This document shows, piece after piece, positions 26,606-40,016 of a stretch of DNA of 44,269 nucleotides. The stretch covers positions 1 to 44,269 of the forward strand of contig JANWXD010000031.1 of assembly GCA_025055455.1 (NCBI GenBank). Direction: 5' to 3'. This DNA comes from Bryobacteraceae bacterium (GTDB lineage Bacteria > Acidobacteriota > Terriglobia > Bryobacterales > Bryobacteraceae). A program made the translations under genes and the position numbers. How positions within the stretch are numbered: position 1 is the first letter of the stretch; each line of letters opens with the position of its first letter. The notes beneath the pieces are model-generated. The model worked only from the letters and a program-made list of their open reading frames with translations, was not told where the DNA came from and did no database searches.

Positions 26606-28054
26606 ATGGGGCCGGAGGACCGGCGCCGGAACATTGAACGACTGCGCACCGAAACGTTCGACGTTTTGATCCTGGGCGGCGGCATCAATGGCGCGGGGGT
26701 CGCCCGCGACCTGGTCCTGCGAGCCGAAGACGCGGGCCTTCCGCTGAGCGTGGCGCTGGTCGAGCAGCGGCAATTTGCCTCGGGCACCAGCGGCAAGAAC
26801 TCCCAGCTCATCCACGGCGGGCTGCGGTACCTGAAATATCTGGAGTTCGGCCTGGTGCGGGAGAGCTTGCGCGAGCGCCGCATCCTATTGCGCATGGCGC
26901 CCCATTTAGTCGAGCCGCTGCCCTTCCTGTTGCCCATGTACGGATGGGGCCGCCGCCTGTTTTATGAAGCCGGCTTGCGGCTGTACGATGCGCTGGCAGG
27001 CGAGGCGCGCATCGGCCAGCGCCGCAGCCTGTCGGCGGACGAAGTCGCGGTCCTCGAGCCGGCCCTCGCCCAGCGGGGCCTGTCCGGCGGCGCGATCTTC
27101 TACGACTGCCGGGTCCAGGCCGCGCGGTTCGTGCTGGAGAACGTCTTCGACGCAGCCCGCCATGGTGCCGTGGTGGCCAATTACATCCGAGCTGGGCAGC
27201 GCCAGCGCGACGGCGGCCTGTGGCGCGTGGCACTGACCGAAACGCTCACGGGTGAAGTCTTCGAGACCCGAGCCCGTTTCTTGGTGGACGCGCGCGGGCC
27301 GTGGGGAGAAACCGGACTGCGGCTGGTGCGGGGTTCCCATTTGGTCTTTCCGAAAATCACCTCGGGCGAGCGAGCGATCGCCCATTTCGACGCCCAGGGC
27401 CGGATCGTCTTCTTCATTCCGTGGGGTGCGCACCGCCAGCTCACGTTAGTCGGGACCACCGACGTGGACCACACCGCTGGCCCCGAACAAGTCTGGATCT
27501 CCGCCGCCGAGCGGGATTATTTGCTCGCCACGGTGCGCGCCGTCTTGCCGCAGGCGGCCGCGCTAGCGCCGGTGTCCGGATACAGCTCCCTGCGTCCCTT
27601 AGTGGCGGGGGGCGACGGATCGCCCACGACGGCCACGCGCGAGCACCGGATCTGGGCTTCGACCGAAGGTTTGATCCACATCGCCGGCGGCAAATACACC
27701 ACGTACCGGCTCATGAGCGAGCAAGCCGCCGACCTGGTCTGTCGCAGCGTGGCGCCGACTCTGGCGCGCCGGCACGTAACGGAGGATGCCCCTCTGCCGC
27801 CCCCGGCCGGACCGCGCATCGAAGACCTGCCAGTCCCGCAGCAAGCAGCACGGGCCGTCGGCTGCGAAATGGCCCAGCGGCTGGTGGACCTGTTGTTCGT
27901 CTCCACCTACGCCGGCTATGAGCGACAGTGGGATCCAGAGTCGCTGGAACCTTATGCGGCGGCCATGGCCGGGCTGCTGCAATGGGACGCACGCCGCCGG
28001 GAAGAGGAGATCACTCTGGCCTTGCGCCTGGCGGACTGGGGTCCCCGGCCATGA
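26606..28054 (+). CDS. glpD: Glycerol-3-phosphate dehydrogenase (FAD, GlpD-type)
   Basis: A 482-residue FAD-dependent enzyme that oxidises glycerol 3-phosphate to dihydroxyacetone phosphate, usually feeding electrons to quinone at the inner membrane. The N-terminus has FDVLILGGGINGAGVARD (dinucleotide loop at 24-31), then SGTSGKNSQLIHGGLRYLKYLEFGLV, which is the GlpD signature, FDAQGRIVFFIPW, TTDVD and IHIAGGKYTTYRLMSEQAAD. The C-terminal domain is shorter than in E. coli GlpD. ATG start with a -10-like hexamer 7 bases upstream. Its stop overlaps the start of the YihY gene by four bases. Confidence 0.93.
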   Translation: MGPEDRRRNIERLRTETFDVLILGGGINGAGVARDLVLRAEDAGLPLSVALVEQRQFASGTSGKNSQLIHGGLRYLKYLEFGLVRESLRERRILLRMAPHLVEPLPFLLPMYGWGRRLFYEAGLRLYDALAGEARIGQRRSLSADEVAVLEPALAQRGLSGGAIFYDCRVQAARFVLENVFDAARHGAVVANYIRAGQRQRDGGLWRVALTETLTGEVFETRARFLVDARGPWGETGLRLVRGSHLVFPKITSGERAIAHFDAQGRIVFFIPWGAHRQLTLVGTTDVDHTAGPEQVWISAAERDYLLATVRAVLPQAAALAPVSGYSSLRPLVAGGDGSPTTATREHRIWASTEGLIHIAGGKYTTYRLMSEQAADLVCRSVAPTLARRHVTEDAPLPPPAGPRIEDLPVPQQAARAVGCEMAQRLVDLLFVSTYAGYERQWDPESLEPYAAAMAGLLQWDARRREEEITLALRLADWGPRP

Positions 28055-28938
28055 GGCCGCGCGAGTTCGGGGCGCTGTTGCGCTTGTGCGGGGTGCGCGC
28101 CTGGCGCCACAATTGCCTCGGCGTGGCCAAGAGTGCGGCGTATTCGGCACTGCTCGCATTCTTTCCGTTGTTAACCGCCACGGCAGCGTTGCTGGTTCAG
28201 ATCCGCGCCGAGCCGGTCACCCGGGTCGTAGCGCGCGCGCTCGCCCGTGCCCTGCCCCCCGGCACCGAGGGCTTGGCGCTCGAATACTTCCGTGCGCACG
28301 GCCAACGCCCTCACGAGTTGCTCGTGGTCGCTTCCCTGGTCTCGGTCTGGGCGGCGTCGCGCGTGATGACCAGCTTGATGGAGGGCTTCGACGCCGCCTA
28401 CGAAGCGGCGGCACAGCGCCCGTTCCTCCGGCAGCAAGCCGTCGCCATCCTCTTAGTTTTTGCCAGCGCCGTGCCCGCAGTGTTGGCCTCCGTGGTGATT
28501 CTGCTCGGTACGCGAACCGAGCGGGCGGTGATCGCCTGGCTGGGCTTCCTACCAGCGGGTCGGCTGTTCGAGCACTGGGTGGCGTGGGCCGGGACGGCCT
28601 TGCGGTACGCCGTGGCCTTCGGCACCACGGTAGTCGTCACCGCGCTCCTGTACAAACTAGGACCGAACCGCCCCCAGCAGTGGCGCTACGTCTGGCCCGG
28701 GGCCGTGCTGGCCACCCTGCTGTGGCTGGCCGCAACCTTGGCCTTTTCCTGGTACGTGCGCAACATGGCTGAGTACAACATCCTTTACGGCTCCATTGGC
28801 GCCGTCATCGCCCTATTGATCTGGATGTACGTGCTGGCCGTGGTGGCGCTCGTCGGCTGCGAGTTCAACGCCGCCTACGAACAGTTGGCGAAACGCGCGA
28901 CGCTGGCGAGTGCCGCAGGCCACCGCGGCCGGACCTGA
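28051..28938 (+). CDS. YihY/UPF0761-family inner membrane protein
   Basis: A 295-residue membrane protein of the YihY (BrkB-like) family with about six transmembrane segments. Characteristic pieces are AAYSALLAFFPLLTATAALL near the N-terminus, YKLGPNRPQQWRYVWPGAVLATLLWL, and NILYGSIGAVIALLIWMYVLAVVALVGCEFNAAYE at the C-terminus. The biochemical role of this family is not settled. The ATG overlaps the glpD stop (ATGA), so the two are coupled. A second, clearly diverged YihY protein lies at 40691-41626. Confidence 0.9.
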   Translation: MRPREFGALLRLCGVRAWRHNCLGVAKSAAYSALLAFFPLLTATAALLVQIRAEPVTRVVARALARALPPGTEGLALEYFRAHGQRPHELLVVASLVSVWAASRVMTSLMEGFDAAYEAAAQRPFLRQQAVAILLVFASAVPAVLASVVILLGTRTERAVIAWLGFLPAGRLFEHWVAWAGTALRYAVAFGTTVVVTALLYKLGPNRPQQWRYVWPGAVLATLLWLAATLAFSWYVRNMAEYNILYGSIGAVIALLIWMYVLAVVALVGCEFNAAYEQLAKRATLASAAGHRGRT

Positions 28939-28994
28939 TCCGTCACCCACCCGCGCTGAGTCGCCCCCTGCGAGTTTTGCCCGCTCCCCGGCAC

Positions 28995-29000
28995 TACTCT
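28995..29000 (+). promoter_or_regulatory. -10-like hexamer before the NfrB-like gene
   Basis: TACTCT is separated from the GTG at 29007 by 6 bases. This spacing recurs at several genes in the window and supports that start over the upstream TTG. No -35 is evident. Confidence 0.3.
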
Positions 29001-29006
29001 GTTGAG

Positions 29007-30653
29007 GTGCCTGTTAGCCTGCTGACGTGGCTGGACGGCGTCGTCGCTGCGCTGTTGCCGCCGCTGGCGATCTTTCTCATCCTCAGCGGGCTGGACGATT
29101 TGTTTCTTGACTTGGCGCTGTTGCGCCTTCGGCGGCGCCTGCAACTGCCCTATTCCGGGGGAGAAGACCCACCCGAAAAGCGCACCGCCATCTTCATTCC
29201 CCTCTGGAGGGAACACCGGGTCGTGGAAGGGATGCTCGCCCACAACCTGGCGGCGATCCGATACGGAAGCTATGACGTCTTCCTGGGCACATATCCCAAC
29301 GACGAGCCGACGCTCGAGGCCGCACGGCGAGCGGAGCAGCGCTATGGCAATGTTCACCTCGCCGTTTGTCCTCATGACGGGCCCACCTCCAAAGCGGACT
29401 GCCTCAACTGGATCTATCAGCACATGCTCCTGTTCGAGGAACAGCAGGGCGTTCGGTTCGAACTCGTGGTCACCCACGACGCCGAGGATATCATCCATCC
29501 GGACACGCTCCGTTGGATCAACCGCTACAGCCAGGCCTACGACATGGTCCAGATCCCGGTGCTGCCTTTGCCCACGCCCGTGCACCAGCTGACGCACGGC
29601 GTGTATTGTGACGAATTCGCCGAGTATCAGACGAAAGATGTTCCGTTGCGCACGGTGCTCGGCGGCTTCCTCCCCTCTAACGGCGTCGGTACCGGATACA
29701 GCCGCCGGGCACTCGAGGCGCTGGCCGAAAGCGGCGCCAACCGGGTCTTCGAACCTGACTGCCTCACGGAAGACTACGAAAACGGCTACCGCCTCCACAA
29801 GCTGGGATTTCGCCAGCTCTTCGTCGCTTGGCATTTCTCTGATGGCCAGCCCGTGGCCACCCGGGAGTACTTCCCCCAACGCTTCCGGCAGGCGGTGCGG
29901 CAGCGGACGCGGTGGATCCTGGGGATTGCGTTGCAAAGCTGGCAGCGGCATGGCTGGGGGGGCCGGTTCGGCGAACGCTACTGGTTCTGGCGGGACCGCA
30001 AGGGCTTGATCGGCAACCCCGTGAGTCTGCTGAGCAACATCCTCTTCTTCTACGGCGCGGTCACGTGGTGCGCCAGCTATTGGAGCGGGCGTCCTTGGGG
30101 TCTTGCCGAGGCTGCCGGCTCACGCTTCAGCCTGTGGCTGGCCGTGGCGCTGTCGTTGACCGCGGTGCGCACGGCGCTGCGCATGAGGTCTGTAGCCCGA
30201 TTCTACGGATGGGCCTTCGCCCTCGGGACGCCGGTGCGGACGGTATGGGCCAACTGGCTGAACACCGTGGCGACCTTCGGGGCCCTGAGCCGCTACGCGG
30301 TGGCCCGACTGCGCAACCGCCCCTTGGTATGGGTAAAGACCGAACACTCCTATCCCACACGCGAGGCCCTCGTGGCGATGCGTTTGATCACGGCCGATGA
30401 GTTGCGGCAACGGGTGGAGCACGTCGAGCCGGAACGCGTCCGCCGCGAGGTGGCGCGCGCCTTGCCGGCCCGCGTGGTGCGCCAGTGGCGCGTGCTGCCC
30501 TTCAAAGTGGAAAACGGCGCACTGCTGGTGGCCACTCCCGAGGTCCCGCCGCCGGCCTTGCGGGAGGGACTGCGGTCGTTCACGCGCCTGGAGATCCGGT
30601 TCCACTTGGTCAGCGCCGAGAACTACGAAGAACTGGTCCGCCGGTTGCTATAA
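29007..30653 (+). CDS. NfrB-like inner-membrane family 2 glycosyltransferase
   Basis: A 548-residue membrane glycosyltransferase resembling the NfrB (phage N4 receptor B) family. It has N-terminal membrane segments (LLPPLAIFLILSGL), a GT2 catalytic domain with IFIPLWREHRVVEGM, GTYPNDEPT, THDAEDIIHP (DxD region), PSNGVGTGYSRRAL, LTEDYENGYRLHKLGF and the QRTRW product-handling motif, then further helices. The last 110 residues look like a GspE-N/MshEN-type domain, in NfrB tied to cyclic-di-GMP control, but here the nucleotide-binding residues look poorly conserved. I chose GTG 29007 because TACTCT ends 6 bases before it; TTG 28977 is the alternative. No nfrA partner is in the window. Confidence 0.82.
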   Translation: MPVSLLTWLDGVVAALLPPLAIFLILSGLDDLFLDLALLRLRRRLQLPYSGGEDPPEKRTAIFIPLWREHRVVEGMLAHNLAAIRYGSYDVFLGTYPNDEPTLEAARRAEQRYGNVHLAVCPHDGPTSKADCLNWIYQHMLLFEEQQGVRFELVVTHDAEDIIHPDTLRWINRYSQAYDMVQIPVLPLPTPVHQLTHGVYCDEFAEYQTKDVPLRTVLGGFLPSNGVGTGYSRRALEALAESGANRVFEPDCLTEDYENGYRLHKLGFRQLFVAWHFSDGQPVATREYFPQRFRQAVRQRTRWILGIALQSWQRHGWGGRFGERYWFWRDRKGLIGNPVSLLSNILFFYGAVTWCASYWSGRPWGLAEAAGSRFSLWLAVALSLTAVRTALRMRSVARFYGWAFALGTPVRTVWANWLNTVATFGALSRYAVARLRNRPLVWVKTEHSYPTREALVAMRLITADELRQRVEHVEPERVRREVARALPARVVRQWRVLPFKVENGALLVATPEVPPPALREGLRSFTRLEIRFHLVSAENYEELVRRLL

Positions 30654-30683
30654 CGGTTGCCTTCCGGCGGTGAGCGAGCGCGC

Positions 30684-30689
30684 TACAAT
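30684..30689 (+). promoter_or_regulatory. -10-like hexamer before araD
   Basis: TACAAT lies 14 bases before the araD ATG and could start the araD-ankyrin-kinase-regulator transcript with a leader of only a few bases. No -35 is clear. Confidence 0.3.
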
Positions 30690-30703
30690 GAGCTTCGATT
30701 CCC

Positions 30704-31402
30704 ATGCTGGTGCGCCACCTCCGCGAAGAAGTCCTCGAAGCCAACCTCGAGCTCATCCGCCGCGGCCTGGTGATCTACACCTTCGGCAACGCCAGCGGCA
30801 TTGACCGGGATCTGGGTTTGGTGGTCATCAAGCCGAGCGGTGTGCCGTTCGACGAACTGGTTCCCGAAAACCTTGTCGTGGCGGATCTTCAGGGACGGGT
30901 CTTGGAAGGCGACCTGCGGCCCTCCTCGGATTTGCCGACCCATCTAGCTCTATACCGGGCGTTCCCGAGCATCGGCGGTGTCGTGCACACCCACTCGCGA
31001 TACGCCACAGCTTGGGCGCAAGCCTGCCGGGAGATCCCCTGTTTGGGAACTACGCACGCCGATTACTTTCACGGGGCCGTACCTGTGACGGAGCCGCTTA
31101 CGGCGGAGGAGATCGAAGCCGATTATGAGCGTCACACCGGGGAGGTGATCGTCCGGCGGTTCGCGAATGCCGATCCGCTCGAGATGCCAGCGGTGCTCGT
31201 GGCCGGACATGGTCCGTTCTGCTGGGGAAAGTCCCCGCGCGAGGCGGCCGAGCACGCCGTGCTTCTCGAAGAGGTGGCGGCACTGGCCTACTTCACCGTG
31301 GCTCTCGATCCGGCCGCTGTTCCCATCCCCGCGGCGCTGCGCGACAAGCACTTCTACCGCAAGCACGGAGCCGCGGCCTATTACGGGCAACCGCCCCGAT
31401 GA
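30704..31402 (+). CDS. araD: AraD-like L-ribulose-5-phosphate 4-epimerase / class II aldolase
   Basis: A 232-residue zinc-dependent class II aldolase-fold enzyme. AraD interconverts L-ribulose 5-phosphate and D-xylulose 5-phosphate in L-arabinose use. The family motifs are in order: GNASGID, KPSGVPFDEL, PSSDLPTH, the metal ligands in VVHTHSRYATAWAQA, CLGTTHADYFHG and AGHGPFCWG. The length and the GTTHAD block match AraD better than fuculose or rhamnulose aldolases. No other arabinose genes are adjacent, so its pathway is not shown by context. ATG start, without a Shine-Dalgarno; TACAAT ends 14 bases upstream. Its stop overlaps the ankyrin gene start (ATGA). Confidence 0.9.
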   Translation: MLVRHLREEVLEANLELIRRGLVIYTFGNASGIDRDLGLVVIKPSGVPFDELVPENLVVADLQGRVLEGDLRPSSDLPTHLALYRAFPSIGGVVHTHSRYATAWAQACREIPCLGTTHADYFHGAVPVTEPLTAEEIEADYERHTGEVIVRRFANADPLEMPAVLVAGHGPFCWGKSPREAAEHAVLLEEVAALAYFTVALDPAAVPIPAALRDKHFYRKHGAAAYYGQPPR

Positions 31403-32670
31403 AGGTCGCTTTCCGGCCGGTTGGCCCCCGGCTTCCTCGGGCGCTACTGGTCCTGGCGATCAGTTGCCGCCTTTCGGGCGAGGACGCCGATGCGCTCCAC
31501 CGGGCGGCGCGAGCCGGCGACCTGGAGCGGCTCCGTGCGCTGCTGGCCGCGGGCGCCGACGTGAACGCCCGAAATCCGCTCGGGGCCACGCCGCTTCACG
31601 ACGCTGCCTGGAGCGGCAACACGCGTGTGGCAGAATTGCTGCTGGCCAGCGGTGCCGACGTCAACGCCCGACACGCGGAGGCGGGTTCCACTCCCCTGCA
31701 CTATGCGGTGCTGACCAACCGGATCGAAACGGTGGCCCTGCTGCTGGGGCGGGGCGCCGACGTCACGGCGCGGCAAAGAGGAGGCGCCACGCCGCTGCAC
31801 CTTGCGGCGGGCCGCGGCTATGTCGAAGTCGTCCGCCTGTTGCTCGACCACGGCAGCCCGCTCGACGCGAAAGACTCCGCCGGCGCCACGCCGCTTGACG
31901 AGGCCGCTTGGCGGGGTCAAACGGAAGTCGTCCAGCTGTTGGTGGCGCGCGGGGCCGATGTGCGGCTCCGGAACCGGCAGACCGGGGCCACCCCGTTGCA
32001 CCACGCCGCCGCCAAGGGTCACAGCGACGTCGTGGCGTTGCTGATGGCCGCCGGCGCCGACGTTCATGCCCGCGACCATGCGGGAGCCACGCCGCTCGAC
32101 GAAGCGCTGCGTCACCGGCACTACCGCGCCGCCGAAGTGCTGCTGGGCGGGCAGCCCTCCCTGCGCGGTATGGCGGCTCAGGAACTGCTCGCACAAGCGG
32201 TACTGCGCGGGGACGTGGATCTGGCCCGATTGCTGCTCGACAAAGGGGCCGAGGTGACCGCCCCGACAGCCACCGGCTCGACGCTGCTGCATGAGGCGGC
32301 CCTGAAGGGCCACCGGGATATGGTGCGGCTCCTGATCGAGAAAGGCGCACGCGTGGACGCGCGCAGTGCTGAGGGCGCAACGCCGCTCCACGACGCGGCG
32401 GTGGGCGGGCACACGGAGGTGATCGGCCTGCTGCTGGATGCGGGCGCCGACATCGAGGCGCGCCTGGAGGCCTCCGGGGCCACGCCGCTGTTTTTGGCGG
32501 CCTCCTGGGGCCGCGCCCCGGCGGTCGAGGTACTGCTGCGGCGGGGCGCCAACCCCGATGCCAAGACCAAGGACGGTCGTACCGCCATGGATGCGGCCCT
32601 CGAAGGGGGCCACCAAGAAGCGGCGGAATTGTTGCGGCGCGCTAAAGCCGTTCAACCTACAGCCCGATAA
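31399..32670 (+). CDS. Exported ankyrin-repeat protein
   Basis: A 423-residue protein made of about eleven ankyrin repeats (roughly 30-415), each with the TPLH/TPLD and LLL--GADV consensus. The repeat near residues 245-265 (SLRGMAAQELLAQAV) is degenerate and may mark two repeat blocks. Residues 1-22 form an export signal, and C23 (LAISC) could be a lipobox cysteine, although alanine at -3 is not ideal. Ankyrin proteins act by binding partners; there is no catalytic domain. The ATG overlaps the araD stop, and a histidine kinase gene begins 9 bases after its stop, so it may work with that sensory pair. Confidence 0.9.
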   Translation: MKVAFRPVGPRLPRALLVLAISCRLSGEDADALHRAARAGDLERLRALLAAGADVNARNPLGATPLHDAAWSGNTRVAELLLASGADVNARHAEAGSTPLHYAVLTNRIETVALLLGRGADVTARQRGGATPLHLAAGRGYVEVVRLLLDHGSPLDAKDSAGATPLDEAAWRGQTEVVQLLVARGADVRLRNRQTGATPLHHAAAKGHSDVVALLMAAGADVHARDHAGATPLDEALRHRHYRAAEVLLGGQPSLRGMAAQELLAQAVLRGDVDLARLLLDKGAEVTAPTATGSTLLHEAALKGHRDMVRLLIEKGARVDARSAEGATPLHDAAVGGHTEVIGLLLDAGADIEARLEASGATPLFLAASWGRAPAVEVLLRRGANPDAKTKDGRTAMDAALEGGHQEAAELLRRAKAVQPTAR

Positions 32671-32679
32671 CCACAACGG

Positions 32680-34344
32680 GTGACGATCGAGCACGGCCCC
32701 GCTCTGGCCGCGGCCGCCGTGGTGCTCCGCAGCCGGCTCGGGACGCAGCTACCCCGGATCGCCAGGCTGCTTGAGCCGCGCGCCTCCTGGCTGCAACAGA
32801 GATTCCTCCGCTTTTTGCGCCGATCCGGCTACGACGCGCGCCAGTGTAAAGCGCTCGCCGCCATCACACCCGGGGCGTTGGCGCCCTTGTTGCGCCGTCC
32901 GCACTCGCGAGCGTGGCTGGAACCCGTCGAGTACCACGCACGGCGTCTGGCCAAACTGAACGTGCCTCCCGAGCGGGTCCTGGAGGCGCTCAGCGAGTAC
33001 GACCGGCTGCTGGCCAAGCGACTGGAGGCCGACCAGCTCAAGCCAGATACGGAGCTGGCTTGGGCGCTCGACCAGCTTCGGCTGCGTGTCGCCCTCGCGC
33101 TGAATGATTGCTATTACCGGGTTCGGGAAGCGGAGGCGGCGGCGTATCAGGAGTTGTTTCGCGCGGAGCTGGAGTCCGGAAACTTCCGCGACCTCGTGGC
33201 CCGCCTGCTCGACATCCTGCGGCGCTCCTGTCAGGCGCGGGTAGGGGCGTTCTTCAGCTTGGATGCAGTGGGTCGCCGTTGGCGCCTGGAGGCCCGCGCG
33301 GGCATACGGCTGCGAGCGGTGGCTAAAGCGCTGGAACTGCCCGCTCCGAAACGCGATCAACAGCGCTTGTCCCGACCCGTGTGCGGATTGCGCACGCGGC
33401 GGGGATCCTGGCCCGCGCTGGATCCCGCCTGGCGTCGCTACGCCACCTGTTGGTCGGTCCCGGTTCTCACGGGCCAGGGATTGGCGGGCGTGTTTCAATT
33501 CGCGTTTCCCCGCCCCTACGAATGGCTCCCCCGGGAACTGGAATTGCTGATGGCGGCCGCCGAGCGCTGCTGGCTGGCGATGGAAAAAGCAAGGCTCCTC
33601 GAGCACTTGGCGGCCCGAGAGGAGCAAGTGCGGCGGCTGGCGGAGCACATGATGGAGGTCGAAGAGCGGGAGCGGCGCCGCATCAGCGCGGAGTTGCACG
33701 ACGAAGCCGGCCAGTCCCTGCTGTGTGTGCGACTCCAACTAGAGATGCTGGAGCGGAAATTGTCGGAAAGCCCGGCCGAACTTCGCGCCGGGCTGGTGGA
33801 AGCCCGCGCGCTGACCGAACGGACGATCCTCGAGATGCGGCGGCTCATCGCGGACCTGAGTCCGGCCCTGCTCGAACAATTTGGGCTGGCCGCGGCGTTG
33901 AAGCAGTTGGTGGCGCGATTTCGCCGGATTTGCCCCACCAAGGTGAGTCTGCGCCTCAGCCGGCTGAACCGTCTACCGGGCCGCCTGGAACGTCTGGTCT
34001 ACCGCCTGGTTCAAGAATGCCTGAACAACGTGGCCCGGCACTCCCAAGCGCGCCACGTAAACCTCCGCGTGGTCGTTGCCGATAAACACTTAGTGGTGCA
34101 CGTCGAGGACGACGGTGTCGGTTTTGACGTGAAGACGGCGCTGGCCAAACGGGACTCGTTCGGCTTGGCAGGAATGCGGGAACGGGTGACGTGGCACGGC
34201 GGTCGCTTCCACGTCGAGAGCCGGCCGGGTCGCGGCTGCAAGATCCGCATCGAGCTTCCGCGAGAGATCGGCCCCGACCCGGCCGCCGCAACAGGGACGA
34301 GAAAACGGTGTTATGGCCAAGATACGAGTGCTGCTGGCAGATGA
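32680..34344 (+). CDS. NarL-type sensor histidine kinase with unassigned N-terminal domain and GAF-like domain
   Basis: A 554-residue cytoplasmic kinase. Residues 1-160 are helical, rich in leucine and arginine, and unassigned; H86 in EYHARRLAKLNVPPERVL loosely recalls the proximal histidine region of globin-type sensors. A GAF-like domain spans about 165-300. The HisKA_3 helix has H340 in ISAELHDEAGQSLL, and the HATPase_c domain has the N-box QECLNNVARHSQA and VEDDGVGFD. This kinase type pairs with NarL/FixJ regulators, and such a regulator overlaps its last 32 bases. GTG start without a Shine-Dalgarno, 9 bases after the ankyrin gene, so coupling is likely. Confidence 0.9.
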   Translation: MTIEHGPALAAAAVVLRSRLGTQLPRIARLLEPRASWLQQRFLRFLRRSGYDARQCKALAAITPGALAPLLRRPHSRAWLEPVEYHARRLAKLNVPPERVLEALSEYDRLLAKRLEADQLKPDTELAWALDQLRLRVALALNDCYYRVREAEAAAYQELFRAELESGNFRDLVARLLDILRRSCQARVGAFFSLDAVGRRWRLEARAGIRLRAVAKALELPAPKRDQQRLSRPVCGLRTRRGSWPALDPAWRRYATCWSVPVLTGQGLAGVFQFAFPRPYEWLPRELELLMAAAERCWLAMEKARLLEHLAAREEQVRRLAEHMMEVEERERRRISAELHDEAGQSLLCVRLQLEMLERKLSESPAELRAGLVEARALTERTILEMRRLIADLSPALLEQFGLAAALKQLVARFRRICPTKVSLRLSRLNRLPGRLERLVYRLVQECLNNVARHSQARHVNLRVVVADKHLVVHVEDDGVGFDVKTALAKRDSFGLAGMRERVTWHGGRFHVESRPGRGCKIRIELPREIGPDPAAATGTRKRCYGQDTSAAGR

Positions 34345-34978
34345 CCACACGCTGTTCCGCCAGGGCGTCCGCACCTTGGTGGCGGCGGAACCAGACATGG
34401 AGGTGGTGGGTGAAGCCTCGAACGGCGCCGAAGCGGCCGCCAAGGCCGCCGAGCTGCGCCCGGACGTGGTGCTGCTCGACATCAGTATGCCCGGGCCGAG
34501 CAGTTTCGAAACCGCCCGCCAGATCCGCCGCCAGCGTCCCGAAACCAAGGTGCTGTTCCTGACCATGTACGACGATGAGGACTATCTGCTCGAAGGCATG
34601 GAGGTCGGCGCCAATGGCTACGTGCTCAAAGACAGCCCCGCCAGCCAGCTCATTACCGCCATTCGCGACGTCCACCGCGGCGGCAGCTACTTGAGCCCGC
34701 GCATGCTCGGGCAGTTGGTCGACGATTTCCGCTCGCGCATCCGTGCCGCCGACCATCAACCCCGGCTGGCGACCCTGACGCCGCGCGAAAAAGAGGTCCT
34801 CAAGATGCTGGCAGAAGGCAACTCCGTCAAGGAAGTCGCCTCCTTGTTGAACCTCAGCGTCAAGACCGTCGAGGCGCACAAGTTCAACCTAATGCGCAAG
34901 CTCGATATCCACAACAAAGCCCAGCTCGTGCAGTACGCCATCCAGAAAAAAATCATCAAGCTGCCCATGATGGCCTGA
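34313..34978 (+). CDS. NarL/FixJ-family response regulator
   Basis: A 221-residue two-domain regulator. The receiver has the acidic pair D10-D11, the phosphorylation site D56 (VVLLDISMPG), T84 and K106. The C-terminal LuxR-type helix-turn-helix reads LTPREKEVLKMLAEG, VKEVASLLNLSVKTVEAHKFN and ends with the long helix QLVQYAIQKKII. It is expected to bind DNA after phosphorylation by the upstream kinase, whose gene it overlaps by 32 bases. Targets are unknown; the araD-ankyrin genes are obvious candidates. ATG start. Confidence 0.95.
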   Translation: MAKIRVLLADDHTLFRQGVRTLVAAEPDMEVVGEASNGAEAAAKAAELRPDVVLLDISMPGPSSFETARQIRRQRPETKVLFLTMYDDEDYLLEGMEVGANGYVLKDSPASQLITAIRDVHRGGSYLSPRMLGQLVDDFRSRIRAADHQPRLATLTPREKEVLKMLAEGNSVKEVASLLNLSVKTVEAHKFNLMRKLDIHNKAQLVQYAIQKKIIKLPMMA

Positions 34979-35002
34979 CCCGTCCCGCCGCCGCCGGCAG
35001 GG

Positions 35003-35008
35003 TAGAAT
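35003..35008 (+). promoter_or_regulatory. -10-like TAGAAT before the first TIM-barrel gene
   Basis: TAGAAT is 6 bases before the GTG at 35015. A transcript from it would be leaderless or nearly so. No -35 is recognisable. Confidence 0.35.
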
Positions 35009-35014
35009 CGGGGA

Positions 35015-35938
35015 GTGAGCGGTCGACCCTCGCGCCGGGCTCTCCTGGCCGGCCTCGGCGCGCTGGCTTCAGCCCGGTCGCGTTCGGCGCCGCGCCCCAT
35101 CCGTCTGGGCGGGCCAATCTTCCTCAAGAGCGACGATCCCCGCGAACTGGCCCGGGAGCATCGCCGCCTGGGCTACAGCGCCGCGTACTGCCCCGAAGCC
35201 CGGCCGGAAGATGCTGCCCGCTGCCGCGCCATCGAGACGGCGTTCGCTGCCGAGAACGTGGTCATCGCCGAAGTCGGCGCCTGGCGCAATATGCTCGACC
35301 CGGATGCGGAGAGACGCCGCGCCACCTTCGACTACGTCGTCCAGCGACTGGCTTTGGCCGAGGCGGTCGGGGCACGGTGCGCCGTGACGATCGCCGGCTC
35401 CTACAATCCCAAAATCTGGTACGGCCCCCACCCCAAGAACCTTTCGCGGGAGTTTTTCGACGCTACCGTGGAGAACTGCCGGCGTGTGATCGATGCCGTC
35501 AAGCCCCGGCGCACGCACTTTACGATCGAGATGATGGGCTGGAGTCTGCCCGACAGCCCCGACTCCTACCTGGAGCTGATCCGCGCTGTGGACCGCAAGG
35601 GGTTCGCCGTGCACCTGGACGTGTGCAACCTGATCAACAATCCCGCCCAGTTCTACCGCAACTCCGAGCTGATCGAGGAGTGTTTCCGCAAGCTGGGCCG
35701 CTGGGTCGTCTCCTGCCACGCGAAGGACCTGGATTGGGTCGTCGAGATGAACCTCCACTTTGTCGAGGTCGTACCGGGACGGGGCCATCTGGACTACCGC
35801 GCATATTTGCGGGGGCTGGCCGCTCTCCCGGTGGATGCGCCTCTGATGCTCGAGCACCTGACGAGTCCCGACGAGTACGAGGAGGGCAAGCGCTACATCT
35901 TCAGAGTGGCCGCGGAACTGGGCTTACCATTCGCTTGA
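35015..35938 (+). CDS. Exported sugar phosphate isomerase/epimerase-like TIM barrel
   Basis: A 307-residue xylose-isomerase-type TIM barrel. The N-terminus SRRALLAGLGALASA looks like a Tat leader. Barrel pieces include VIAEVGAWRNML, CAVTIAG, the ligand-bearing TIEMMGW (glutamate) and HLDVCNLINN (aspartate), VSCHAKDLDW (histidine, then aspartate), and GRGHLDYRAYLRGL. Together they fit a metal-dependent sugar isomerase or epimerase, possibly acting outside the cytoplasm. Substrate unknown. GTG start; it is 18 bases before a second, related gene. Confidence 0.82.
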   Translation: MSGRPSRRALLAGLGALASARSRSAPRPIRLGGPIFLKSDDPRELAREHRRLGYSAAYCPEARPEDAARCRAIETAFAAENVVIAEVGAWRNMLDPDAERRRATFDYVVQRLALAEAVGARCAVTIAGSYNPKIWYGPHPKNLSREFFDATVENCRRVIDAVKPRRTHFTIEMMGWSLPDSPDSYLELIRAVDRKGFAVHLDVCNLINNPAQFYRNSELIEECFRKLGRWVVSCHAKDLDWVVEMNLHFVEVVPGRGHLDYRAYLRGLAALPVDAPLMLEHLTSPDEYEEGKRYIFRVAAELGLPFA

Positions 35939-35956
35939 AGGAGGAAGCAAGAATCC

Positions 35957-36808
35957 ATGAACCGCAGAGATTTCCTCGCGGCGGCCGCCGCGTTGGCGGC
36001 CGTCAGGGCCAAGGCGGCGCGCCTGCCCATCCGCAAGGCGGTCTGGTACGGGATGCTGCCCAAAGAGCTCAGCGTGGCGGACCGTTTCCGTTTGGCACGC
36101 GATGTTGGATTCGAAGCCATCGAGTGCCCGACGGCCGACGAGCGGCTGGCCGAGGAGTTCAAGAAAGCCTCCGAAGACGCCAAGCTGCCGATCCACTCGG
36201 TCATGAACCAGGCGCATTGGAAGTTTCCGCTGTCATCGGCCGATCCCGCAGTGGTGGCCGAAAGCATGAAGGGCCTGGAAACGAGTCTGCGCAACGCGCG
36301 CTTCTGGGGCGCCGACACGGTGCTCCTCGTCCCTGCCGTCGTCAACCCCCAAACCAGCTACCGGGACGCCTGGACGCGCTCCCAGCAGAACATCCGAAAA
36401 CTGCTGCCTTTGGCGCAGGAGCTGAAAGTGATCATCGCCATCGAGGATGTCTGGAACCGATTCCTGCTCAGCCCGCTCGAGTTCGCGCGCTACGTGGACG
36501 AATTCGAAAGCCCATGGGTGCGCGCCTATTTCGACGTGGGCAACATCGCGTTGTTCGGCTATCCGCAGGACTGGATCCGCACCCTCGGCGCCCGCATCGT
36601 GAAGCTGCATTTGAAAGACTTCCGCTTCCGAAAGATGCAAGCCGAGTTTGTCAACCTGCGCGAGGGCGACATCGACTGGAAGGAGGTGCACAGGGCCTTG
36701 AGCGAGATCGGTTTCCGAGGAGACGCTACCGTGGAGCTCGCGGCGGGCGATGAGGCGTACCTCCGGGAGGTCGTGCGGCGCATGGAACTGATTCTCGAAG
36801 GAGCCTGA
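35957..36808 (+). CDS. Tat-exported sugar phosphate isomerase/epimerase-like TIM barrel
   Basis: A 283-residue TIM barrel with the classical Tat leader MNRRDFLAAAAALAA. The barrel resembles hydroxypyruvate isomerase and L-xylulose 5-phosphate 3-epimerase relatives: VGFEAIECP, IHSVMNQAHW, WGADTVLLVPAVVNP, IIAIEDVWNRFLLSP (metal glutamate), YFDVGNIALFG (aspartate), KLHLKDFR (histidine) and GDIDWKEV. ATG start with AGGAGG well placed upstream. It is adjacent to the other barrel gene, so they may act in sequence on an extracytoplasmic sugar. The exact reaction is unknown. Confidence 0.88.
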   Translation: MNRRDFLAAAAALAAVRAKAARLPIRKAVWYGMLPKELSVADRFRLARDVGFEAIECPTADERLAEEFKKASEDAKLPIHSVMNQAHWKFPLSSADPAVVAESMKGLETSLRNARFWGADTVLLVPAVVNPQTSYRDAWTRSQQNIRKLLPLAQELKVIIAIEDVWNRFLLSPLEFARYVDEFESPWVRAYFDVGNIALFGYPQDWIRTLGARIVKLHLKDFRFRKMQAEFVNLREGDIDWKEVHRALSEIGFRGDATVELAAGDEAYLREVVRRMELILEGA

Positions 36809-36827
36809 TATCGTCCGGAGTAATCCG

Positions 36828-38546
36828 ATGGCCAAGTTTCTGGTGGGACTCGTCGCCGGGTTGATCCTGGCCCTGCTGATCGGCGTGGTCGTCGTGTTCG
36901 CGGCGCTGCGCCTCGCCGAGCGGCCTCCGGAAGTGGCCGACAACTCGGTGCTCGTTCTGCGCTTGGATGGCGAGCTGCTCGAAAAGGCGCCCATGACGAT
37001 CCCCCTGCCGTTCTTCGAGGCGCGCCGTCCGCTCACGGTCGCCGACGTCTGGGACCTGGTGCGCAAAGCGGAGGCCGACGCGCGGATCCGCGCCGTAGTC
37101 GTCATGCCGGCCGGGCTGGCCGCCGGCTGGGGCAAGCTCGAGGAGTTGCGCGCTTTGCTTGCGCGCCTGCGCAAAACGGGCAAGCCCGTGGTGGCTTTTC
37201 TCCGGGAACCGTCCACTCGCGAATACTACGTCGCGGCCGCCGCCGGGCGGATCTACATGCCACCCGAGGACTTGCTGGACATGAAGGGCTTGCGCGCCGA
37301 GGTGCTGTTCTTGCGGCGGACCCTGGACAAGCTGGGCGTACAGGTCGAGATCGAACACGCCGGCAAGTACAAGGACTTCGGCGACCGCTTCACGCGGACC
37401 TCCATGAGCCCGGAGACCCGCGAGGTGCTGAACTCGATCCTCGACGACTTGTATCGCCGCCTGGTCGCCGCCGTCGGCGAGGCCCGGCGCAAGAGTCCCG
37501 ACGCGGTCCGCGCCTTGCTCGACGAGGGGCCGTTCCTGGCCCGGCAGGCCCTCGAAAGAGGTTTGGTGGACGGCCTGCTTTACGAGGATCAAGTCTTCGC
37601 CGAAGTGGAAAGGCTGGCCGGAGGCAAAGCCCTGCGGAAGCTGGCGGCGCGGGACTATCTGCGCGTGCCCGCCTCCTCGCTCCGTTTGAGTGGTCCACGG
37701 ATCGCACTGGTTGCCGCCGAGGGAACGATCGTGAGCGGACGGGTCCCAGGCTTCGGGGACGAGGACGTGATCCAGTCCGGTCCCTTTTCCCAGTTGCTGC
37801 GCCGCGTCGGCGAAGACCCAAACATCCGCGCCGTGATCGTCCGCATCGATTCGCCGGGTGGCAGCGCTTTTGCCTCGGACGAGATCTGGCGTCAGATGAA
37901 CGCCCTCAGCAAAAAGAAACCCCTCGTGATTTCCATGTCCGATACAGCCGCATCCGGCGGCTATTACATCGCCATGACGGGCGACCCGATCGTGGCCTAT
38001 CCGGGCACCTTCACGGGTTCGATCGGGGTCATCTACGGCAAGGTGAATCTGCGCGGCCTGTATGACAAGCTCGGCATGAACAAAGAGCTGCTGACGCGCG
38101 GCCGGTTTGCCGACCTGGACTCCGATTACACTCCTCTGGATGCAGCGGCGCGCCGCAAGTTGCGTGAAGGCTTGGAGGCCACTTACCGGGCCTTCGTCGA
38201 GCGTGTCGCGCAAGCCCGGAGGCGGCGCTTCGAAGAGGTCGAACCCCTAGCCCAGGGCCGCGTGTGGCTCGGTTCGCAGGCCAAGGAGCGCGGCTTGGTG
38301 GACGAGCTCGGAGGCTTGGACCGGGCCATCGAACTGGCAAAGAAAAAGGCGGGGATCCGGCCGGAGGAACCCGTCTCGCTTGTGCTGTATCCTCCCAAGC
38401 GCACTCTCGTGGAACGTCTCTTGCAACCCGAGCGGGAGACGGCATTCGAAGCGCGCCTCAAAGTGCTGCTGCGGCAGGCACGCGCGGCGGCGTGGATCGA
38501 AGGCGGAACGCTGCGCCTGATGCCCTTTGCGATCGAGGTCCGTTGA
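36828..38546 (+). CDS. sppA: Signal peptide peptidase SppA (67 kDa type)
   Basis: A 572-residue membrane-bound Ser/Lys protease that degrades cleaved signal peptides in the periplasm. One N-terminal transmembrane segment (FLVGLVAGLILALLIGVVVV) is followed by tandem S49 halves. The catalytic serine S376 lies in TAASGGYYIA of the second half, and the lysine base is expected in GKYKDFGD of the first half (K182 by alignment with the known YKS motif, or K180). IDSPGG and GSIGVIYGK are further family motifs. The length matches the large SppA class. ATG start with GGAG about 8 bases upstream. Confidence 0.93.
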   Translation: MAKFLVGLVAGLILALLIGVVVVFAALRLAERPPEVADNSVLVLRLDGELLEKAPMTIPLPFFEARRPLTVADVWDLVRKAEADARIRAVVVMPAGLAAGWGKLEELRALLARLRKTGKPVVAFLREPSTREYYVAAAAGRIYMPPEDLLDMKGLRAEVLFLRRTLDKLGVQVEIEHAGKYKDFGDRFTRTSMSPETREVLNSILDDLYRRLVAAVGEARRKSPDAVRALLDEGPFLARQALERGLVDGLLYEDQVFAEVERLAGGKALRKLAARDYLRVPASSLRLSGPRIALVAAEGTIVSGRVPGFGDEDVIQSGPFSQLLRRVGEDPNIRAVIVRIDSPGGSAFASDEIWRQMNALSKKKPLVISMSDTAASGGYYIAMTGDPIVAYPGTFTGSIGVIYGKVNLRGLYDKLGMNKELLTRGRFADLDSDYTPLDAAARRKLREGLEATYRAFVERVAQARRRRFEEVEPLAQGRVWLGSQAKERGLVDELGGLDRAIELAKKKAGIRPEEPVSLVLYPPKRTLVERLLQPERETAFEARLKVLLRQARAAAWIEGGTLRLMPFAIEVR

Positions 38547-38612: not shown

Positions 38613-40016
38613 ATGCCGGGAACCCTCTCCACGCTGGCGCGGCGCATGGACCGGCTGTACGAATTCGACCGCGAGCCGGTGGCCGAAGCCAAACTGCAAG
38701 CCGGGCGCCGCTTTGCGGGGTTGTTCGCCGGAGAGCACGTGGCGGCCACGGAGTTCGTCATCGGCGCTTTCTTCGTTCTGCACGGCGTCAGCGCCCGCGA
38801 TCTGATCGTCGGCTTGCTGGTGGGAAACCTGCTGGCCGTGCTCTCCTGGACTTTGATCTGCGCCCCGATCGCCGTGCGCACCCGCCTGACGCTGTACTGG
38901 TACTTGCGCAAGATCGCCGGGCCCGGGATGACGCTCGTCTACAATGTCGCCAACGCATTTCTGTATTGCATCCTGGCGGGCGCCATGATTTCGGTCTCGG
39001 CCACCGCCATCGGACTCGGCTTCGGCGTCAAGACCCCGGCGCTCGATGAACTCATGCCGAACAGCGTGGGCTGGGTGATCTTGACCTTGGGGATCGGCAC
39101 GGCCTTCACCGTCCTGGCCATCCTCGGTTTCGAAAAACTCAGCAAGTTCGCCAGCGTGTGCTCCCCCTGGATCTTCGTGATCTTTCTCGCCGGTGCGATC
39201 GCCTCGTTTCGGCCCCTCGGCATTCATCCCAACTTGGATAACCTCTGGGAGGTGTTGCACACACGGGTGTGGAACGGCATCCCCACCCCCGGCCAGGAAA
39301 AGTTCGGCGTGGCCCACGTGATCTTTTTCGCGTGGTTCTGCAACCTGGCCATGCACGTGGGTCTTTCGGACATGGCGCTGTTCCGCTACGCGAAAAGCTG
39401 GAAGTACGGGCTCTATTCGGCCTTCGGCATGTATCCGGGACACATGCTGGCCTGGATGTGCTCGGGCATCATGGTGGCGAACGTCAACCGCCAGATGGAC
39501 CCGGGGCTGATGGCATATCAGGCGGCGGGGCTGGCCGGAGTGTTTGCCGTCATGCTAGCGGGCTGGACCACCGCCAACCCGACGCTCTACCGTGCGGGGC
39601 TGGCTTTGCAAGTCATCACGCCGGACTGGCCGCGGTGGAAGATCACCTTGATCGCCGGGGTCGCCACCTCGATCCTATCCGTGTTCCCCGTCTTCTTCCT
39701 GCGCTTGCTCGATTATGTGGCCATCTACGGTTTGGTACTGATGCCCGTTGGAGCGGTCGTATTCGCGGAACACTGGATCCTACCCCGGCTCGGTTTGGAG
39801 CAGTACCGCGCCGAAAAGCTCGGCTGGCTGTTCAACTGGCGGGCGATGGTGGTCTGGGTCGGAACTTTAGCCGCCTGCTGGTGGATGCCGTTCCACTTAT
39901 ATTTTCGCTGGCTGCCCGGCTATGTGCTGGCGGTGGCGGCGTACACGGCGCTCCAATATGTGCCCGCGCCGCAACGCGTCAACGTGGTGGCACCGGTCTC
40001 CGGAGGGCGGCCGTGA
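38613..40016 (+). CDS. NCS1-family nucleobase permease
   Basis: A 467-residue transporter with about twelve predicted membrane helices of the nucleobase:cation symporter-1 (cytosine/purine/hydantoin) family. The family-like stretch GWTTANPTLYRAGLALQVI is in the second half, together with FEKLSKFASVCSPWI and LLDYVAIYGLVLMPVGAVVF. It should take up a purine, pyrimidine or related compound with a cation; the substrate is not defined. ATG start with GGAAAA upstream. Its stop overlaps the start of a 55-residue membrane protein gene (GTGA). Confidence 0.88.
   Translation: MPGTLSTLARRMDRLYEFDREPVAEAKLQAGRRFAGLFAGEHVAATEFVIGAFFVLHGVSARDLIVGLLVGNLLAVLSWTLICAPIAVRTRLTLYWYLRKIAGPGMTLVYNVANAFLYCILAGAMISVSATAIGLGFGVKTPALDELMPNSVGWVILTLGIGTAFTVLAILGFEKLSKFASVCSPWIFVIFLAGAIASFRPLGIHPNLDNLWEVLHTRVWNGIPTPGQEKFGVAHVIFFAWFCNLAMHVGLSDMALFRYAKSWKYGLYSAFGMYPGHMLAWMCSGIMVANVNRQMDPGLMAYQAAGLAGVFAVMLAGWTTANPTLYRAGLALQVITPDWPRWKITLIAGVATSILSVFPVFFLRLLDYVAIYGLVLMPVGAVVFAEHWILPRLGLEQYRAEKLGWLFNWRAMVVWVGTLAACWWMPFHLYFRWLPGYVLAVAAYTALQYVPAPQRVNVVAPVSGGRP

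Follow-up and report, generated by a model that had tools for sequence, protein, structure and literature searches.

AfGcHK, the haem globin-coupled histidine kinase of Anaeromyxobacter, carries an N-terminal globin-fold domain on a histidine kinase, and is not known to have a GAF domain between the globin and the kinase core. Systems of the NarX/NarL type pair a HisKA_3-HATPase_c kinase with a REC-GerE regulator; NarX, NarQ, and UhpB are membrane sensors. In the stressosome, the N-terminal domain of RsbR is a globin fold without a haem ligand, joined to a STAS domain; Bacillus RsbR is described as non-haem in PMC4976288, which adds that what RsbR-containing stressosomes respond to in vivo is not yet known. 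The flagellar promoter consensus, -35 TAAA and -10 GCCGATAA, is given in PMC8325347 as common to the sigma factors FliA and WhiG; WhiG, of the WhiG-RsiG switch, is a FliA-clade sigma factor with non-flagellar targets. Here we analyse a 44,269-nucleotide stretch of DNA (the window), one complete contig (JANWXD010000031.1, C70) of the 3.95-Mb draft genome, in 145 contigs, of a Bryobacteraceae bacterium (GCA_025055455.1), and within it a sensor histidine kinase with an adjoining response regulator. No paper on this kinase-regulator system was found in the open-licence literature searched; PMC10950880 deals with another system.

The reading that we favour, with moderate confidence, is that the functional unit is the kinase-regulator pair, served by its own sigma-28-type promoter, that the kinase is a cytosolic protein with a haem-less globin sensor, and that the araD gene a short way upstream is a bystander. 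The kinase, its promoter, the regulator, and the five neighbouring genes treated below as features of the locus all lie on the plus strand. The kinase gene (32680..34344, GTG start) encodes a predicted soluble protein of 554 residues with the order globin fold, GAF, HisKA_3, HATPase_c. Pfam places the GAF domain at residues 170 to 300 (33187..33579, E value 1.1e-7) and the kinase core at 33670..34266, comprising HisKA_3 (residues 331 to 396, 3.9e-14) and HATPase_c (residues 437 to 529, 2.3e-14), and the catalytic residues H340, N450, and D477 are in place. The regulator (34313..34978, 221 residues) is of the NarL/LuxR type, with matches to Response_reg (1.3e-27) and GerE (3.7e-21) and with D10, D56, T84, and K106 present. 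An initial reading of the letters alone, hereafter the sequence-only reading, had called these two genes a NarL-type kinase and regulator, and both the domains and the residues bear this out. For neither protein does any model among the NCBIfam matches listed (for the regulator, 25 of 99) reach its cut-off. The domain plan of the pair is that of NarX/NarL systems; unlike NarX, NarQ, and UhpB, the window kinase looks cytosolic, since no transmembrane segment is seen and the maximum 19-residue hydropathy is 1.36.

Conservation of the pair was assessed with protein searches, using each of the four proteins of the araD-to-regulator run, over 121 genomes (the window's own and 120 relatives); matches at the thresholds used were found in 61 genomes for the kinase, 74 for the regulator, 54 for the ankyrin-repeat protein encoded between araD and the kinase gene, and 54 for AraD. 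Counted on the best 70 of the 84 regulator rows, the two genes of the pair stand next to each other in 60 of the 61 genomes that have both, within 400 bp in 59 and at 706 bp in one; in the sole exception, G085, they are on separate contigs, the kinase near a contig end. Neighbourhoods were tallied by tblastn at 61 kinase loci, the window included, counting only loci with enough flanking sequence: 52 with at least 1.4 kb upstream for the ankyrin gene, and 52 with at least 3.5 kb downstream for the regulator and the genes beyond it. The regulator is present downstream at 52/52 of the latter. A second, named set of loci with a near full-length kinase (L184 to L226) comes mostly from Bryobacterales, Bryobacteraceae, Candidatus Solibacter or Sulfopaludibacter, or unspecified Acidobacteria; one of them, L196, is titled Acidimicrobiia bacterium.

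Residues 1 to 165 of the kinase (32680..33174) have no Pfam assignment. They were aligned with 36 named relatives before structure prediction, and the AlphaFold model is all-helical, with a pLDDT of 90.1 and a pTM of 0.81. The top Foldseek match is the RsbR N-terminal domain (2bnl, E value 0.06). In the 50 rows listed by VIA-align, Z scores run from 8.6 to 10.7, values that helical models may reach through arrangement alone; most of the rows are globins, and a few are phycobiliproteins or related sensor domains. Of these, 2bnl scores 9.9, AfGcHK (5ohe) 9.6, and HemAT 9.5. Pfam Protoglobin gives weak matches in 12 of 37 members, the best at 6.6e-5. In a profile alignment the invariant proximal (F8) histidine of the relatives' true protoglobins falls on leucine 90 of the kinase, and this position is leucine, and never histidine, in 54/54 rows of the genome set, the other 5 of its 59 rows being gapped there, and in 41/41 rows of the named set. 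Haem binding through H86 was considered and rejected; a histidine is found there in only 12 of 54 rows, four residues ahead of the F8 place.

The best reading of the model and of these alignments is that residues 1 to 165 form a globin fold without a haem ligand. The domain seems unable to hold haem, a conclusion drawn from L90. Three results count against the assignment: Foldseek yields no match for the domain at an E value of 0.001 or below; the window kinase domain has no Pfam Protoglobin match, nor is the kinase among the matches in its own genome; and the profile alignment behind the L90 placement is a weak one, with a probability of 2.2% and a P value of 0.021. A profile search of 396 genomes of the phylum for the globin domain found 5. 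A relative of the domain (E value 2.5e-16) lies at L316 (G373:C6), in an open frame of 605 residues whose genome belongs to another family of the class.

Set against the described systems, the predicted arrangement resembles AfGcHK in placing an N-terminal globin-fold domain on a histidine kinase; unlike AfGcHK, it has L90 in place of the proximal histidine and a GAF domain between the globin and the kinase core. It resembles RsbR in the predicted globin fold without a haem ligand; RsbR, with its STAS domain, feeds the stressosome, whereas here the output is GAF, HisKA_3, and HATPase_c. The system works like a two-component pair with a globin-type sensor, and it is neither a haem globin-coupled kinase, by the ligand test, nor a stressosome RsbR, by its output. 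What haem-less globin sensors read is unsettled. In the present case one seems to drive a simple, soluble pair of kinase and regulator, and assays ought to be far easier on such a pair than on the megadalton stressosome. The haem-less globin and GAF domains might respond to something inside the cell; a small hydrophobic ligand, the redox state, or a partner protein are possibilities.

A predicted promoter of the FliA/WhiG (sigma-28) type, CTAAAG-N16-CCGATA, lies at 32642..32669, matches exactly, and overlaps the last codons of the ankyrin gene; its last base is 10 nt ahead of the kinase GTG. It is the sole exact CTAAAGN{15,18}CCGATA in the genome, where the reversed control pattern also occurs once. 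The -10 sequence in the window reads CCCGATAA, which fits the -35 TAAA and -10 (G)CCGATAA required in the sigma-28 regulon. The element emerged from a motif search of the 250 bp upstream of 53 kinase starts, where the best model, a palindromic one, reached a log-likelihood of 112.8 (25 random starts) against 25.3 to 29.0 in three shuffled sets (12 starts each). It consists of CTAAAG, a spacer mostly of 15 or 16 bases, and CCGATA. In the 100 bp ahead of the kinase, 12 of the 53 regions, the window included, have it without mismatch, 30 with at most one mismatch, and 35 with at most two. Markov shuffles of the same regions gave means of 0.04 at one mismatch or fewer (maximum 1) and 0.81 at two or fewer. 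Among 512 other genes of the kinase loci, used as controls, the corresponding counts were 2, one of which is a truncated kinase call (G069), and 13. A further 24 named loci (of 39 usable) lie outside the set of 53; 14 have the element at one mismatch or fewer and 23 at two or fewer.

Of the 30 regions with no more than one mismatch, 25 have a -10 box that ends 8 to 14 nt ahead of the inferred kinase start; the mRNA leader would therefore be only a few bases long, so that the transcript would be nearly leaderless. Given this predicted promoter, the pair probably has its own sigma-28-dependent transcript. There is precedent for the position: an intragenic FliA promoter inside E. coli flhC drives the downstream motAB-cheAW genes, as described in PMC4183435. 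As in the FliA/WhiG regulons, exemplified by the WhiG-RsiG switch, the promoter elements are those given in PMC8325347, and the target in the present case would be a two-component pair. A second TAAA-N-CCGATA match, at 34058-34084 within the kinase gene, seems to follow from the coding sequence (V-N-L-R-V-V-V-A-D-K), and weaker sites with two mismatches were seen upstream of the regulator in G001, G020, and G066.

In relatives the element also stands ahead of flagellar genes. Of 30 loci retrieved for their exact matches, two proved to be kinase sites (L332 and L343); 15 of the 30 downstream open reading frames (ORFs), chosen by eye, were scanned. Six of these encode flagellar proteins, namely FliM (two), MotA, FlgD, FlbD, and FlgM; five of the six are in genomes of the window's own family, the flagellar match in L318 comes from another family of the class, and the spacers are like that of the kinase site. 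Among the remaining ORFs are genes for sigma-54-activator, HDOD, Hpt, roadblock, transporter, and TonB-receptor proteins; two ORFs were unmatched.

At least two sigma genes of the FliA/WhiG type score over the cut-off in the genome, sigA (C51:63144-63803) and sigB (C68:23137-23796, L388). The sigA gene adjoins FlhA-like (FHIPEP), SRP54-type GTPase, and FliN-like genes, the FlhA scoring 765.8 bits, just under the TIGR01398 cut-off of 772.1. The neighbours of sigB are non-flagellar in appearance, by inspection of their ORFs, and sigB is apparently a non-flagellar paralogue. In at least 17 of 60 relatives (G046, G053, G013, G011, and G023 among them) the kinase has a gene for a FliA/WhiG-type sigma factor no more than 5 kb away; 16 of these genes are downstream and convergent, and the one in G027 is 80 bp upstream and co-directional. 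A sigma gene of this type is likewise found at 13 of 43 loci of the named set, which draws partly on the same genomes. When the flanking genes were compared with sigA and sigB, leaving out those of G054, G068, G069, and G038, all 13 compared were sigB paralogues (61 to 76% identity). A tree of 18 flanking sigma genes (11 from the genome set and 7 from named loci) likewise groups them with sigB and apart from the flagellar sigA. We take sigB as one candidate partner sigma factor, with the flagellar FliA as the other. The exact element is found in 1 of 16 sigB upstream regions.

Co-occurrence was examined in 20 genomes of the order that come from two other families. Five of them have a strong FliA-type sigma (best E values 1e-64 to 1e-70); the kinase is found in 4 of these and in 0 of the 15 others (1e-29 to 1e-34), which gives a Fisher value of 0.001, uncorrected for kinship. 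In the same 20 genomes it is found in 2/2 with FlhA versus 2/18 without (Fisher 0.03). The exact pattern occurs 5 times in the 15 genomes without a strong FliA-type sigma, against 31 for the reversed control, as raw counts unadjusted for composition. Tentatively, and with rather less assurance than we attach to the pair itself, these data may be read as an order-wide sigma-28-gated circuit, in which FliA or sigB would switch on the pair and the pair would in turn retune envelope and export functions in a motile or other sigma-28-defined state. Such a promoter suggests that this soil lineage has tied a globin-like sensor to a motility or cell-state sigma factor, and its conservation makes the timing of the pair's action directly open to test.

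Several observations weigh against the promoter and its sigma factor. The motif was discovered in the 53 regions themselves, and the 24 further loci include some near-duplicates, either among themselves or of members of the 53. No element is seen, at up to two mismatches, in 18 of the 53 regions; two genomes, G056 and G071, have no element and a kinase gene that starts within the ankyrin gene, so that co-transcription is likely there. The window spacer, counted as TAAA-N16, is one base longer than at the E. coli sites and equals that at a relative's FliM. In the window's own genome sigB sits on a different contig from the pair, and within the family the association of kinase and FlhA is not significant (53/4 versus 13/3, Fisher 0.17). 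Over 73 genomes the exact pattern was counted 182 times and its reversed control 197 times, so most exact matches elsewhere may be due to chance; in the 45 family genomes the counts are 158 and 144. With no genome-wide excess, it is the location of the element beside the kinase, and not the number of matches, that carries the argument for a promoter.

These counts invite another explanation, that the pair is an orphan two-component system set by chance among unrelated genes, and that CTAAAG-CCGATA is a binding site for the regulator, or a coincidence, and not a promoter. The high turnover of the neighbourhood would agree with this, as would the lack of any excess over the reversed control and a partial inverted repeat around the spacer at many sites. 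The element nevertheless resembles flagellar promoters in both sequence and spacing and stands before flagellar genes in relatives, and its counts ahead of the kinase far exceed those in shuffles and at control genes; we consider the explanation improbable. As to the repeat, letters resembling CCTTAG occur in the spacer of many relatives and make an inverted repeat with CTAAAG, which may be a site for the regulator but is not established; at one mismatch or fewer the repeat is found in 5 of 30 kinase sites and 1 of 29 others, with a mean of 1.3 and a maximum of 6 in shuffles.

The sequence-only reading had proposed that the pair probably shares a single transcript with the two genes upstream, and that ankyrin protein, kinase, and regulator form a sensory set; it left the role of the AraD-like aldolase undecided. 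The four ORFs were recovered at the positions it gave (31399-32670 and 30704-31402 for the ankyrin and araD genes), its spacings of -4, 9, and -32 bases were reproduced, and Pfam agrees with all four of its gene labels. The four genes are part of a longer co-directional run, which they neither begin nor end: between a glycerol-3-phosphate dehydrogenase-like gene at 26606 and the gene that ends at 40016, all gaps are 66 bp or less. An ORF of 467 residues at 38613-40016 has no Pfam match at an E value of 0.01. A scan of 28800-36900 gave one sigma-70 promoter-like site (0.7 expected) and two terminator-like sites (5.2 expected), counts that were uninformative. Because the pair has a predicted sigma-28-type promoter of its own inside the end of the ankyrin gene, a single four-gene transcript is unsupported as the main mode of expression.

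The first of the four genes (30704..31402) encodes what is, on sequence comparison, an ordinary L-ribulose-5-phosphate 4-epimerase. It matches Pfam Aldolase_II (4e-50), passes the NF006047 cut-off (335.5 bits against 257), and falls below the stricter TIGR00760 (329.2 against 389.1). The alignment with the E. coli enzyme 1jdi extends over nearly the full length (E value 1.5e-73), and D76, H95, H97, D120, H169, and Y227 (window numbering), which we take to be active-site residues, line up with it. The synteny search that the sequence-only reading had suggested for all four genes upheld the kinase-regulator linkage and, in part, that of the ankyrin gene, and it gave nothing for AraD, which is absent around all 60 other kinases (examined over as much as 8 kb upstream and 4 kb downstream, less where a contig ended). 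In other genomes AraD has no partner of the set within 6 kb: 0/29 with the ankyrin gene, 0/30 with the kinase, and 0/36 with the regulator, the regulator tally being based on the best 70 of 84 rows, with the 14 weakest left out. Membership of AraD in the unit is unsupported, and we regard it as a bystander, a metabolic gene that lies upstream by happenstance in this species. A four-gene operon that includes it has been dropped, there being no conserved linkage.

The ankyrin gene (31399..32670) encodes a protein of 423 residues with matches to Pfam Ank families and a hydrophobic N terminus. By a crude hydropathy rule an N-terminal export signal is predicted in 38 of 46 orthologues, the window protein included, so the earlier description of the protein as exported is upheld as probable. 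The gene lies co-directionally upstream of the kinase within 6 kb at 22 of the 52 testable loci and within 400 bp at 20 of them, window included, and is not beside it within 6 kb at the other 30; we treat it as an optional neighbour of the pair. Away from the pair, its orthologues often adjoin redoxin, citrate synthase, amidohydrolase, or MurB genes. In three genomes (L281 in G008, L286 in G022, and G006:C8) an orthologue adjoins a more distant LuxR-type regulator with 54 to 58% identity, and no kinase match was obtained in these genomes at the threshold used. NCBIfam matches that might suggest a Dot/Icm-type effector are far under their cut-offs and reflect the ankyrin repeats alone, and this identity was rejected.

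In its fullest form the four-gene proposal has the exported ankyrin protein catch an external partner and feed the kinase, with AraD taking some part. The tight gene spacings speak for it, as does the ankyrin gene within 400 bp upstream of the kinase at 20 of 52 loci, divergent relatives among them. It is contradicted by the missing AraD, by the loci at which the ankyrin gene is elsewhere and adjoins other gene families, and by a kinase that lacks a membrane segment and has, with its regulator, a separate predicted promoter; we hold it to be very improbable. With a kinase that looks cytosolic, the ankyrin protein, if exported as predicted, would be unable to contact it directly, and a role as its external sensor is unlikely in view of the absent transmembrane segment and the globin fold predicted for the N-terminal domain. 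More likely, the ankyrin protein has a separate place in the envelope or is an output.

A more modest alternative keeps the ankyrin gene and leaves out AraD: ankyrin protein, kinase, and regulator would form a three-gene sensory or output module, co-transcription from upstream supplementing the internal promoter. Gene order and strand are kept at 20 of 52 loci, the same order recurs at the named loci L184, L199, L203, L205, L214, L216, and L225 (partly the same genomes), and the overlap of kinase start and ankyrin gene in G056 and G071 fits it. On a kinase tree of 59 rows, however, ankyrin linkage is scattered and needs 13 changes, and the internal element is retained between the two genes in 12 of the 19 ankyrin-linked regions of the 53-region set, window included. 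We judge such a module unlikely, though less so than either of the other alternatives.

The favoured reading, a kinase-regulator pair with its own promoter, leaves room for the ankyrin protein on the output side. AnkB of Pseudomonas aeruginosa offers a comparison: it is a periplasmic ankyrin protein needed for full KatB catalase activity, according to a title in the reference list of PMC7567364. The window protein is like AnkB in carrying a predicted export signal, and unlike it in its surroundings, no catalase having been found among 17 window proteins scanned, a subset of the window ORFs.

Downstream of the regulator lie three further recurrent neighbours, with counts that include the window. 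Two encode TIM-barrel (AP_endonuc_2) proteins with twin-arginine-like N termini, at 35015..35938 (Pfam 1.8e-22; 11 of 52 testable loci) and at 35957..36808 (5.7e-38; 23 of 52). The third, at 36828..38546, encodes an SppA-like peptidase (Peptidase_S49, 3.2e-75; 23 of 52). At least one of the three is downstream of the pair at 27 of 52 loci. TIM/SppA linkage needs 8 changes on the kinase tree; with 13 for the ankyrin gene and 8 here, both linkages are loose. Models for L-ribulose-5-phosphate 3-epimerase are listed among the matches of the TIM-barrel proteins, and a sugar-pathway link with AraD was considered. It was set aside because the 3-epimerase scores are under their cut-offs, the N termini are of the twin-arginine type, and the best araA match in the genome is likewise under its cut-off (20.2 against 24 bits). 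The two proteins at 35015-36808 are sugar isomerase-like, and export of this kind would part both from the cytosolic substrates of AraD.

Taken together, the sequence features point to a possible course of events. When a sigma factor of the FliA/WhiG type is active, the pair would be transcribed from the promoter that overlaps the end of the ankyrin gene. The sensor domains would set the activity of the kinase, phosphate would pass from H340 to D56 of the regulator, and the regulator may then adjust genes of the sigma-28 cell state. Their recurrent linkage makes the ankyrin gene upstream, and the two Tat-type TIM-barrel genes and SppA downstream, possible targets.

One further gene of the run deserves mention. 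Upstream of araD, at 28977-30653, a family 2 glycosyltransferase with a C-terminal MshEN domain exceeds the NF011305 cut-off and resembles NfrB, a glycosyltransferase activated by c-di-GMP.

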